This document shows, one piece after another, positions 1 to 34,136 of a stretch of 64,000 nt of DNA. The stretch spans positions 1 through 64,000 of the forward strand of contig NZ_JAKGTI010000001.1 in NCBI RefSeq assembly GCF_021568695.1, given 5' to 3'. Source of the DNA: Maritalea mediterranea. GTDB lineage: Bacteria; Pseudomonadota; Alphaproteobacteria; Rhizobiales; Devosiaceae. Each line of letters begins with the position of its first letter. The stretch's first letter is position 1. Both the position numbers and the translations under genes were made by a program. The notes under the pieces were generated by a model. That model was given only the letters and a program-made list of their open reading frames with translations, did no database searches and was not told the DNA's origin.

Positions 1-480
1 GCCCCGGCACCCCCGGCTCTTTTTAGCGCCGCCGTCGTTCGCTGCGCTCCCTACCCCGGCACCCCCGCCATCTTTCGCGCCGCCGTCGCTCACTGCGTTT
101 GCTACCCCGGCACCCCCGCCATCTTTCGCGCCGCCGTCGCTCACTGCGTTTGCTACCCCGGCACCCCCGCCAATGGGTGCCCCGCTCTTATGCTGTGCAC
201 GGCGCAGCCACACCCTCTTACGTCATTACCGGACTTGATCCGGTAATCCATGTAGCGATGGTGGGTAAGCGAAAGCACACAAGTTGTGCATCCTCATTGA
301 TGCTGCTTGGACCCCGGATCAAGTCCGGGGTGACGGCAGTGGGTGAAGATGGGCTTCAGAGTAAATCCGAAAAGAAAAAGAGTGGACGACCTAAGCGAGG
401 ACCTCGCGCGCACCGCAGCAGGCCGTTGCATAGCGGGGGGTGCAGGGACCAACCTGTCCGGCGCGAGCACATAAAAAGGG
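1..480 (-). repeat. Composite palindromic repeat, copy 1 (reverse orientation)
   Basis: This gene-free stretch is built from repeat modules. Positions 1-50, 51-101 and 102-152 are tandem GC-rich units (the last two are identical 51-mers) followed by a partial unit. Two palindromes follow at 225-247 (core CCGGACTTGATCCGG) and 311-331 (core CCGGATCAAGTCCGG), with a small hairpin GCACA/TGTGC at 275-289 between them. The part from about 345 to 480 matches, more loosely, the flanking module of the other copies. It ends just beyond the 3' end of the ThpR gene. Short reading frames here are repeat translations, not genes. The left border is not visible. Confidence 0.85.
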
Positions 481-2110: not shown

Positions 2111-2776
2111 TAGGCCTTTTTTACTCTCACGGCTGATGGGCGGCAGCTATTTTCCCCTCGTGCCGGGAGGTGAGGCGCCTAACCTTGGGCGGGTGCGGAC
2201 CAAAAGCGGCACGGGGTCGGCGATGCGCTCGTCCACTCTATTTCCTTGGAGATTTACGCCGAAGCATCTCTCCACCCACTACCATCAACCCGGACTTGAT
2301 CCGGGGCCCAAGCAGCATCAGTGAGGGTGCACAACATGCATGTTGTTGCCCAGCCACCAGGGCTACATGGATTACCGGATCAAGTCCGGTAATGACGTGA
2401 GAGGGTGTTGTTGCGTCCTGCACAACATAGACGCGGGGCACCCATAGGCGGGGGTGCCGGGGTAGTGAGCGTAACGAACGACGGCGGCGCGCAAAAATGC
2501 CCGGGGGTGCCGGGGACGGACACGCAGTGTCCGGTGGCGGCGAGTAAAAATGCCAGAGGCCGGGGTAGTGAGCGTAGCGAACGGCGGCGGCGCGTAAAAA
2601 AGCCGGGGTGAATTTTTTCGCTCACGGTTGAGCGGTGCTTTCAGCACCTAACCTGCGCGGGCGCGGCCAAAAAGTTGGCCGGGGTCCTCGCTATACTCGT
2701 CCACTCTTCTCCATTACTTGCTCAAAGCAATTCGCTTGGCACCAATCGGCGGGGGTCCCGGGGTAGCGGCGCGAAA
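2111..2776 (+). repeat. Composite palindromic repeat, copy 2
   Basis: This 730-base gap between two convergent genes holds no gene. A loose flanking module (about 2135-2275) is followed by palindrome A1 at 2287-2306, a central hairpin ACAACAT/ATGTTGT at 2331-2346, palindrome A2 at 2371-2393, and GC-rich B units from about 2448 to 2608. A second, diverged flanking module (about 2610-2710) and a partial B unit (about 2748-2776) follow, so this copy looks like two elements fused or nested. One B unit is the variant with a GGACAC/GTGTCC centre. Confidence 0.85.
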
Positions 2777-12897: not shown

Positions 12898-14456
12898 TAT
12901 TGTACCCCCGCAATCGCTGCCGCGAAATCATCGGCCTCAAACGGCTCCAGATCTTCGATGGTTTCGCCCACGCCGATAAAGTGCACCGGCAATTTATGCT
13001 TTTGCGCGATCGCCACCAGAATACCGCCCCGCGCCGTGCCATCCAATTTGGTCATCACCAAACCAGTCACTCCGGCCCGTTTGCCAAAGATTTCCACCTG
13101 ATTAAGCGCATTCTGCCCAGTGGTCGCGTCCAGCGTCAGCATGGTGGTGTGCGGGGCGTCAGGGTCGAGCTTTTTGATCACGCGAATGATCTTTTCAAGC
13201 TCCGCCATCAATTCATCGCGATTTTGCAACCGGCCCGCCGTATCAATAATCAACAGATCGCAATTTTGTGCTTGCGCTTCTTTCACCGCGTCATAAGCCA
13301 GACCCGACGCATCAGCCCCGGTTGGCCGCGTGATCACCGGCACATTGGAGCGCTCGCCCCAAACCGAAAGCTGCTCAACCGCTGCCGCGCGAAACGTATC
13401 GCCCGCCGCCAACATCACCTTTTTGCCCTCACGGCTATATTTCGCCGCCAGCTTGCCAATGGTGGTGGTCTTGCCGGAGCCGTTCACGCCCACCATCAAC
13501 AAAATATGTGGCTTATGCGCCGTGCCCAGCTCAAACGGCACCGCCACGGGCGCCAAAACCTTGCTGACTTCATCGCGCAAAACAGAGCGGATTTCCTCTA
13601 CGCTGATTTCTTTATCAAAACGATCTTGCGCCAGCTTTTCAGTGATTTGGATCGCAGTTTCCACACCCAAATCCGCTTGGATCAGCGTGTCTTCCAACTC
13701 TTCCAGCGCCTCATCATCCAGTTTGCGCTTGGTGAAGATCGAGGAAATATTGTCCGTAAGCTGATCGGATGAGCGTTTCAGCCCATCGCGCAACCGAGCG
13801 AACCAGCCTTTCTTTTTTTCGCCGCCACCGGTCGGTGCGCTCCCGTCCCCGGCACCCCCGCCAGGTTTTTCGCCGCCGTCGCTCACTTCGTTCGCAGTTT
13901 CTGCGCTCTCGCCGCGTGGCTGCCCGGCACCCGGGGAGTCTTTTTGCGCGCCGCCGTCGCTCACTACGTTAGCTACCCCGGCACCCCCGCCGGAACCTTC
14001 ATTATTGCCGCCACCGGTCGCTGCGCTCCCGTCCCCGGCACCCCCGCCGGTCTTATCATCGCCATCGGCCGTCGTTTCTTCATTTTCAGGCTCAGAAGGA
14101 GATTGCGCAGCTTGTTCCAGCTCGGAAATCTCTTGCAACTCCTCTTCCACCGTTTCAACCGCTTTAGCCGCAGCCTCTTCCGGCGCAGGTGTGGGCGGCT
14201 CGGCGTCCGGTGCTTCCTTCAGATCTTCTTCAATCTGATCCAGCGCCTTGTCGATGGACTCATCAATGCTGTCTTTTGGCTCTTGCCAGGGCTGCTCTTT
14301 TTCAAGCGCCGCAGCGTCTTCCGGCGTCACATTGGCAGAAGTCTGATCTTCGCTTTGGTCTTTCGGCGTCTCTTTGGGTTGCGGCTCATCCTTGCCTCCC
14401 AACAGTCGCGACCAAAAGCCTCTTTTTTTGCCGCCGTCGGCTTTATCGTCCGCCAT
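12897..14456 (-). CDS. ftsY: Signal recognition particle receptor FtsY, with repeat-derived insert
   Basis: A 519-residue SRP receptor GTPase that docks ribosome-SRP complexes at the membrane. An acidic, low-complexity N-terminal region (1-213) precedes the NG domain, which begins at K-K-G-W-F-A-R-L. G motifs include G-V-N-G-S-G-K-T-T-T and D-T-A-G-R-L, and T-K-L-D-G-T-A-R-G-G is intact. Residues about 136-213 are encoded by copies of the GC-rich repeat found between genes elsewhere in this window and read as G-G-G-A-G-type peptides. They sit in a linker and leave the catalytic domain whole. The gene follows mtaB by nine bases. Confidence 0.97.
   Translation of the reverse strand: MADDKADGGKKRGFWSRLLGGKDEPQPKETPKDQSEDQTSANVTPEDAAALEKEQPWQEPKDSIDESIDKALDQIEEDLKEAPDAEPPTPAPEEAAAKAVETVEEELQEISELEQAAQSPSEPENEETTADGDDKTGGGAGDGSAATGGGNNEGSGGGAGVANVVSDGGAQKDSPGAGQPRGESAETANEVSDGGEKPGGGAGDGSAPTGGGEKKKGWFARLRDGLKRSSDQLTDNISSIFTKRKLDDEALEELEDTLIQADLGVETAIQITEKLAQDRFDKEISVEEIRSVLRDEVSKVLAPVAVPFELGTAHKPHILLMVGVNGSGKTTTIGKLAAKYSREGKKVMLAAGDTFRAAAVEQLSVWGERSNVPVITRPTGADASGLAYDAVKEAQAQNCDLLIIDTAGRLQNRDELMAELEKIIRVIKKLDPDAPHTTMLTLDATTGQNALNQVEIFGKRAGVTGLVMTKLDGTARGGILVAIAQKHKLPVHFIGVGETIEDLEPFEADDFAAAIAGVQ
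13818..14051 (-). repeat. In-frame array of GC-rich B repeats inside ftsY
   Basis: About 234 bases (78 codons) contain roughly four B units, each carrying the GGCGGGGGTGCCGGGG-type motif on the coding strand. Two have the variant centre seen in copies 2 and 4 between genes. Intergenic units often continue GCGTAAAAATG, where TAA would be a stop in the ftsY frame; the ftsY unit near 13945 reads GCGCAAAAAG, avoiding it. No shift of frame occurs. Confidence 0.85.
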
Positions 14457-22369: not shown

Positions 22370-22800
22370 CCCACGATTGAGCGGCGGCTTGTTTGCCCTC
22401 ACGCCCCGTGGCAGGGCCCCTAACCGACGCGGGCACGGCAAAAAAGCTAGCCAGCGTCCTCGCTTTACTCGTGCACTCTTTTCTCTCGCAATTAAATGCC
22501 GCAGCGCCTCCCCACCCACCGTTGTCACCCCGGACTTGATCCGGGGTCCAAGCAGCTTTAGCGAGGGTACACAACAGGTGTGTTTTCGCCAAATCACCAC
22601 CGCTACATGGATCACCGGATCAAGTCCGGTAATGACGTGAGAGAGTGACGTTGCGCCCTGCACAGCATAAGAGCGGGACACCCATCGGCGGGGGTGCCGG
22701 GGTAGTGAGCGCAGCGAACGACGGCGGCGCGTAAAAATGTCGGGGATGCCGGGGTAGCAAACGCAGTGAGCCACGGCGGCAAGAAAAACCAAACCACCCC
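22370..22800 (+). repeat. Composite palindromic repeat, copy 3
   Basis: This copy lies between convergent rplS and putA and is the clearest full-length example. A flanking module (about 22370-22510) precedes palindrome A1 at 22527-22547, a central hairpin ACACA/TGTGT at 22569-22583, palindrome A2 at 22611-22633 (one arm mismatch), a conserved link containing CCTGCACAGCATAAGAGCGG, and two GC-rich B units from about 22686 to 22790. No gene is seen in the 571-base gap. Confidence 0.88.
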
Positions 22801-31625: not shown

Positions 31626-31700
31626 TGGAGCGGGCGATGAGATTCGAACTCACGACCCCAACCTTGGCAAGGTTGTGCTCTACCCCTGAGCTACGCCCGC
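31626..31700 (-). tRNA. tRNA-Gly (anticodon GCC)
   Basis: On the minus strand the sequence folds as a complete cloverleaf: acceptor stem GCGGGCG/CGCCCGC, D arm with AGCTCAGGGGTAGAGC, anticodon arm ACCTT-GCC-AAGGT, T arm with GTTCGAATC, and an encoded CCA end (31626-31628 as TGG on the plus strand). The intergenic bases around it (31602-31625 and 31701-31931) hold nothing else I can support. Confidence 0.97.
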
Positions 31701-33705: not shown

Positions 33706-33779
33706 GTTTTCCGCTTGCGGTGGAGCGATTTAGTTCTCGCATTGCACTTCCATTCTTTTTCCTTGCAGGTTTTCACCTC

Positions 33780-34100
33780 AGCGCTGCCTCAACTCTCCAC
33801 CGTCACCCCGAACTTGATCCGGGGTCCAAGCAGCTTTGGCGTAGTAGCAAGACATCAGTGTTGCATCGCCCAATGCCGCCGCTACATGGATTACCGGATC
33901 AAGTCCGGTAATGACGTGAGGGGATGTTTTTGCGCCCTGCGCAGCATAAGAGCGAGGCACCCATTGGCGGGGGTGCCGGGGACGGACACGTAGTGTCCGG
34001 TGGCGGCGCGAAAAAAAGAGCCGGGGGTGCCGGGGTAGCGAACGCAGTGAGCGACGGCGGCACGTAATTATGCCGATGGCCCCGGATCAAGTCCGAGGCG
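33780..34100 (+). repeat. Composite palindromic repeat, copy 4
   Basis: Between the convergent Trm112 and ubiquinone hydroxylase genes (431 bases, no gene). Palindrome A1 is at 33805-33825 (one mismatch), the central hairpin GCAA-GAC/GTG-TTGC at 33847-33864, palindrome A2 at 33890-33912, and B units run from about 33966 to 34067, the first with the GGACAC/GTGTCC centre. An extra diverged palindrome is at 34080-34098. The flanking module to the left is weak. Confidence 0.87.
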
Positions 34101-34136
34101 GCCCAAAGGGGAAAACGGCCACTAAATCCAAACTGC

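Follow-up and report, generated by a model that had tools for sequence, protein, structure and literature searches.

CGTC-tagged REPs carry a CGTC (or TGTC/CCTC) tag that lies outside the palindrome, and combine it with stems of 8-9 bp, loops of 4-5 bases and an unpaired tail that is mostly CCA (PMC3733652). Head-head arrangements predominate among their dimers, tail-tail arrangements are rare and head-tail ones negligible, and heterodimers are the predominant form in CGTC-2 and CGTC-3, though not in every species. The dimer spacers mostly span 20-100 bases, and some have complementary ends or stem-loops, two stem-loop spacers having already been described in A. tumefaciens. C. crescentus is named in the same paper as a CGTC-positive species. 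dRS3, which is identical to CGTC-1, is found in neisserial mosaic intergenic regions. As far as that description goes, no transposase is associated with CGTC repeats, and in 2013 its authors left the mechanism of their spread open (PMC3733652). In a literature search by name, 'CGTC-tagged' appeared beyond this paper only in single mentions in seven papers, which in PMC12306157 is an entry of the reference list, and the palindrome 15-mers, searched as printed words, had no match in the literature.

Pattern matching across the window, by which we mean the whole stretch of 64,000 nucleotides analysed here, revealed four inverted palindrome pairs, i.e. eight palindromes. The 15-mer CCGGACTTGATCCGG and its reverse complement are paired at window positions 229/314, 2290/2375, 22530/22615 and 33808/33894, with 70, 70, 70 and 71 bases between them and one mismatch in the copy at 33808. 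The plan proposed in the initial annotation, a palindrome A1 followed by a reverse-complementary A2, was thereby recovered at all four sites. With up to three mismatches allowed, the 15-mer matched 11 times in the window (the eight paired palindromes and positions 34082, 768 and 51460) compared to 2.09 expected matches, and 11 or more matches occurred in none of 100 shuffles. The features are listed in Table 1.

Table 1 Repeat features of the window, with positions counted from its first nucleotide.
Feature	Position	Strand	Remark
CGTC-REP head-head heterodimer 1	221..335	-	ATTA-stem unit left and C-rich unit right on the + strand
CGTC-REP head-head heterodimer 2	2283..2397	+	left tag CATC, not CGTC
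CGTC-REP head-head heterodimer 3 (element under study)	22523..22637	+	
CGTC-REP head-head heterodimer 4	33801..33916	+	
Dimer 3, unit A1	22523..22550	+	tag TGTC, stem, loop CTTGA, stem, tail TCCA
Dimer 3, unit A2, inverted	22608..22637	-	tail TCCA, stem, loop CTTGA, stem, tag CGTC
Claimed third hairpin ACACA-ACAGG-TGTGT, dimer 3 spacer	22569..22583	+	weakly supported
Mosaic 5' module	22420..22489	+	occurs elsewhere without the dimer at one site
Mosaic 3' module	22687..22786	+	two units, ~52-base GGCGGGGGTGCCGGGG...GGCGGC repeat
Composite block around dimer 4	33706..34136	+	
Lone extra unit, 1 mismatch	34082..34096	-	within the dimer 4 block
Separate ~52-base repeat	18-204, 2440-2608, 13811-14081, 22680-22797, 33959-34078		

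Each core is almost certainly a head-head heterodimer of CGTC-tagged REPs, filed as such on the traits described in PMC3733652. The initial annotation knew no named family of this design, a statement that has to be withdrawn, as the CGTC REP head-head heterodimers of that description agree with the cores in tag, loop and tail and also in the inverted dimer and the structured spacer. The units follow the plan [CT]GTCA, stem, CTTGA, stem, TCCA. Of the eight outward-facing ends in the four dimers of the window, six read CGTC, one TGTC and one CATC (left end of dimer 2), and in the aligned copies CCA stands 3' of A1 in 20 of 22 and its complement 5' of A2 in 21 of 22. In the genome as a whole, 16 of 19 unit pairs with a distance of at most 120 bases were arranged head-head with the tags outside, one was tail-tail and two were head-tail. 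Among the 17 copies that were folded, one unit of each heterodimer has a C-rich stem base and its partner has ATTA or ATCA there. The spacer between the 15-mers measures 61-84 bases in CCGG-type dimers and 74-108 bases in dimers of the genus that contain a CAAG unit, four of which exceed 100 bases. In the genus there is a further subfamily of dimers, which has CAAGACTTGATCTTG stems and longer spacers, as well as CAAG/CCGG hybrids (L049, L050, L054, L058, L061-L065).

Two of the four cores were folded in comparison to shuffled sequences and gave z values of -9.4 and -5.5. In all 17 folded copies the predicted minimum-energy fold consists, entirely or for the most part, of A1 paired with A2, which bears out the suggestion in the initial annotation of an alternative pairing across the whole core. 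That the core might be just two unrelated palindromes at variable spacing does not hold, since both units are inverted copies of one repeat. A known RNA family was rejected as an identity for the element, since a search of the whole window placed no Rfam family over any core at or above its gathering score. The Rfam matches in the window are an ffh RNA (RF01793, 16764-16815) and a tRNA-Gly (31626-31700).

The genome (3.32 Mb, 18 contigs) contains 97 CCGG-type units at one mismatch or fewer, compared to 0 for a reversed control, and these units are located on contigs C8, C11, C12, C13 and C14. A 204-base query around dimer 3 had 62 matches in the genome, 16 of which cover at least 179 of the 204 bases. 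The first 115 kb of C8 hold ten of these 16 full copies (binomial 1.6e-11) and 20 of the 97 units (1.2e-10); these statistics indicate clustering and no more, since duplicates are not independent, the 115 kb bound was chosen after the data had been seen and the query was taken from the same region. Such clustering fits local duplication better than dispersed transposition. A scan of a genome collection for an exact inverted pair with a spacer of 55-85 bases returned at least 116 stretches. Among the matches listed, 78 of the 80 titled stretches are alphaproteobacterial by name, and the remaining two belong to one Alloalcanivorax and one Tannerellaceae MAG. From these hosts and from its best rplS matches, we take the own genome to be that of an alphaproteobacterium. 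Phage records gave no match.

In about 1.49 Mb of DNA, units were recognised by their tag, loop and tail, which gave 42 distinct stems of 8-9 positions. In 40 of these 42, no more than one position is unpaired when G-T pairs are allowed. Stems with nine positions (n = 25) form on average 8.80 pairs compared to 6.77 (sd 0.19) when partners were reshuffled, and those with eight positions (n = 17) form 7.53 compared to 6.90 (sd 0.14); in this set tag, loop, tail and first pair are fixed by the search pattern, and CCGG stems are over-represented because most of the DNA had been chosen for a CCGG palindrome. Base changes with pairing kept are clear for the palindromes, across species. Repeat identity, dimer geometry and unit-stem covariation are direct observations on the DNA.

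The third hairpin, which the initial annotation placed at the same position in each spacer, behaves differently. Gaps ignored, the loop centres of the four claimed stems lie at offsets of 21, 21, 23.5 and 22.5 from the left anchor, and therefore copies 2 and 4 pair with other partners; the claimed stem occurs in three registers among the four window copies, so that a shared position is not confirmed. Spacer folding gave a mean z of -0.40 for 33 distinct spacers compared to -0.19 (sd 1.1) for 181 control stretches, the spacer set being a wide one that includes the CAAG type and one probably spurious row. We counted structure pairs on 21 aligned copies (17 from the own genome, four congeneric) with 500 shuffles. 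Cells of the claimed stem were paired in 70.2% of cases compared to 66.1% in shuffled data, with 13 of 500 shuffles as high. Three pairs showed a double change (112 of 500 shuffles), six cells did so (11 of 500), eight further pair types were present (302 of 500) and the covariation score was 0.277 (1 of 500), where kinship among the sequences can produce both a high score and an excess of double-change cells over shuffles.

A tree-based null at the level of the helix is the better contrast in comparison to single-pair testing. In this test, run on slightly different 21 copies (L015 left out by length, L031 included), 51, 20, 25 and 17 of 500 null sets were as good as the claimed stem for paired cells, double changes, pair types and score, respectively, a result in favour of the initial annotation; counting against it, an outer spacer helix gave 57-480 of 500. 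Without the four copies of the window (n = 17), 141, 90, 62 and 34 of 1000 null sets were as good, and the outer four pairs alone gave 322, 122, 136 and 44 of 1000 on the same held-out copies, in which the covariation score put the claimed stem 8th among 279 possible stems. When 21 copies were examined by a G-test with APC, no column pair exceeded the tree-based null (best E 0.9) and none of the stem's five pairs was among the top 25 column pairs; this negative single-pair result weighs little because the power of the test is low, the best pair of the positive-control set of Rhizobiaceae-type spacers reaching an E of 0.175. Taken together, the data on the third hairpin in this genus are suggestive and fall short of establishing it.

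In 23 Rhizobiaceae-type spacers, each of two spacer hairpins was equalled by 0, 0, 3 and 0 of 500 sets in the tree-based helix test; this set was chosen by a loop octamer that fixes the inner pairs of the second hairpin, and its label is partly inferred, since 8 of the 23 rows carry no title. The spacer hairpins covary strongly in these spacers. The principle that had been read from changed bases with kept pairing, namely selection on the fold, consequently stands for the palindromes across species and for the Rhizobiaceae-type spacers of relatives of the element, whereas it is unproven for the spacer in the own genus, where the third hairpin is weak. In the Rhizobiaceae-type dimers the spacer is part of a constrained fold, which is testable.

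The repeat reaches past the core, in that the dimer is preceded by the 5' module and followed by a ~52-base repeat. The ~52-base repeat (GGGGGTGCCGGGG...GGCGGCGCG with an A run) is often tandem and variable in its inner part, and no CCGG palindrome is listed near its occurrence at 13811-14081. Dimer 2 separates a Bax1-I gene (+) from a DUF2794 gene (-), dimer 3 separates rplS (+) from putA (-), and dimer 4 separates a gene for a Trm112p-like protein (+) from one for a FAD-binding protein (-); the two genes are convergent in each case. Convergence was read for these three dimers, as dimer 1 is situated near the contig end, where the left neighbour is unreadable. Terminator hairpins with T runs are present 3' of rplS and of the Bax1-I gene, separate from the dimers, and the latter hairpin is kept in the congener G001, where the dimer is missing. 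Because of these separate hairpins, we rejected the idea that the dimers themselves terminate transcription at sites 2 and 3. Consensus scans gave 1, 2 and 2 terminator-like sites compared to 1.1, 1.1 and 1.0 in shuffles and left both of these hairpins unlisted.

Comparison with the congeners G001 and G005 revealed presence and absence, swap and inversion of elements. At site 4, both congeners lack the composite block with dimer 4, and the same two genes are separated by 6 bases in G005, 58 bases in G001 and about 440 bases of mosaic in the own genome. Site 3 (rplS|putA) holds a CAAG/CCGG hybrid dimer in G005. At site 2, G005 carries an orthologous dimer and G001 carries no dimer. At the C8:77854 site, both modules, 5' and 3', are present in G001 with the dimer missing, and in G005 the dimer is present with the 5' module missing. 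The element at C8:75750-76056 (L049:11750-12056) is inverted in the own genome, and G001 and G005 share the other orientation; compared to G001 the identity is 93.8% over 307 bases inverted and 75.6% over 521 bases collinear. Inverted copies of the ~52-base repeat module flank this element. Ends of syntenic blocks between the own genome and G001 were observed at or adjoining dimers at C8 82.4-82.9, 100.4-102.1 and 114.1-114.4 kb (L049, L050, L051); at the first of these places the break extends over about 6 kb, and the dimer lies at the margin of this region. One and the same pair of ABC transporter genes, on plasmids of Rhizobium phaseoli and relatives, encloses either a dimer-bearing or a different stretch (seven records aligned, two with the dimer, L211 and L227, and five without, L222-L226; the search had 226 matching records, and six were taken among the 40 matches listed). 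As the whole intergenic stretch is replaced, recombination explains this difference as well as transposition does. In close Rhizobium plasmids a second dimer is present or missing between records. A clean insertion of a single dimer with defined ends or a target duplication was not seen at the congener sites or in the close Rhizobium plasmids.

We favour, at a probability of roughly 70% for the whole explanation, CGTC dimers that spread in trans and were then recombined as mosaic modules. The dimer would be non-autonomous repetitive DNA composed of two inverted self-complementary units; in single-stranded DNA or RNA, these can each form a hairpin of their own or combine into a single long one. 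An enzyme that acts in trans and recognises the folded strand as its substrate would have dispersed the dimers. Nowadays they would for the most part be inherited, with recombination homogenising, exchanging and inverting them as modules of intergenic mosaics with convergent genes on either side. The transposition step, the route through recombination and any role as RNA are what we infer from the patterns described above. We know of no mobilising enzyme for CGTC dimers. In the own genome (assembly completeness 98.75%) no Y1_Tnp match was found, this being the only family searched, and no transposase was present among the flanking genes scanned. Nine of 144 genomes of the class are rich in units (at least 16 unit-pattern hits, a bound set after the counts had been seen).

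The nearest competitor dispenses with transposition in the lineage and regards the dimers as pure recombination cassettes, shuffled as modules and locally duplicated by homologous recombination. The inversion at C8:75750-76056 between inverted repeats, the differing module combinations at one site, the clustering within 115 kb and the whole-intergenic differences in R. phaseoli and relatives all fit this account, which we nevertheless consider unlikely, since the same dimer geometry recurs with unrelated flanks across the class and units are spread over five contigs, so that some past dispersal is needed. Another rival is mobilisation as a REPIN by a resident RAYT of the GTAG family, where inverted REP pairs, of similar size to the pairs here, are the mobile unit. 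We rejected it as highly improbable on the tag, which is CGTC here and GTAG there, and on the missing Y1_Tnp, as no Y1/RAYT match exists in the own genome; moreover, a Y1 match is present in two of the nine unit-rich genomes compared to 36 of 144 overall.

It may also be speculated that the element is a structured RNA at gene 3' ends with a post-transcriptional or termination role, kept for its fold including the third hairpin. The convergent placing of all three dimers with two readable neighbours, the z values of the cores, the strong covariation of Rhizobiaceae-type spacer hairpins and a report of 26 transcriptionally active REP elements in S. meliloti, whose kind may differ as far as that source describes them (PMC2873474), are in line with this idea. 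It appears improbable given that site 4 is empty in two congeners, that Rfam recognises only the tRNA and the ffh RNA in the window, that the third hairpin is weak in the own genus and that rplS and the Bax1-I gene have terminator hairpins of their own, the latter also in G001, which is missing the dimer at this site. Because of the separate terminator hairpins at two sites, we rate an RNA role as secondary. A further proposition, doubtful in our estimation, is that each dimer is retained as one folded whole together with its spacer hairpins because a hypothetical non-RAYT enzyme of alphaproteobacteria recognises the multi-hairpin single strand, and that lineages have evolved spacer hairpins of their own, two in Rhizobiaceae and a weak one here, matched to that enzyme.

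The kind of element is already known; what the genus contributes are sites at which congeners differ by gain, swap or inversion, and a genome that has 97 CCGG-type units but no Y1 match. Rhizobial RIME elements (Osteras et al. 1995) reportedly comprise about 108 bp with two large palindromes; by this description, they resemble the dimers here in size and in having two palindromes. In neisserial mosaics, by their description, CGTC units are likewise interleaved with other repeat families, but the companion repeats and the hosts differ from those found here. Among the described systems, the CGTC REP dimers of PMC3733652 share with our elements the tag, the stem length, the 5-base loop, the CCA tail, the inverted heterodimers, the stem-loop spacers, the placing between convergent ORFs and the alphaproteobacterial hosts. 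Unlike the CGTC REPs in what that paper describes, the dimers here form a mosaic together with a 5' module and a ~52-base repeat, are clustered in one region with one inversion and, in the CAAG type, have spacers of up to 108 bases.
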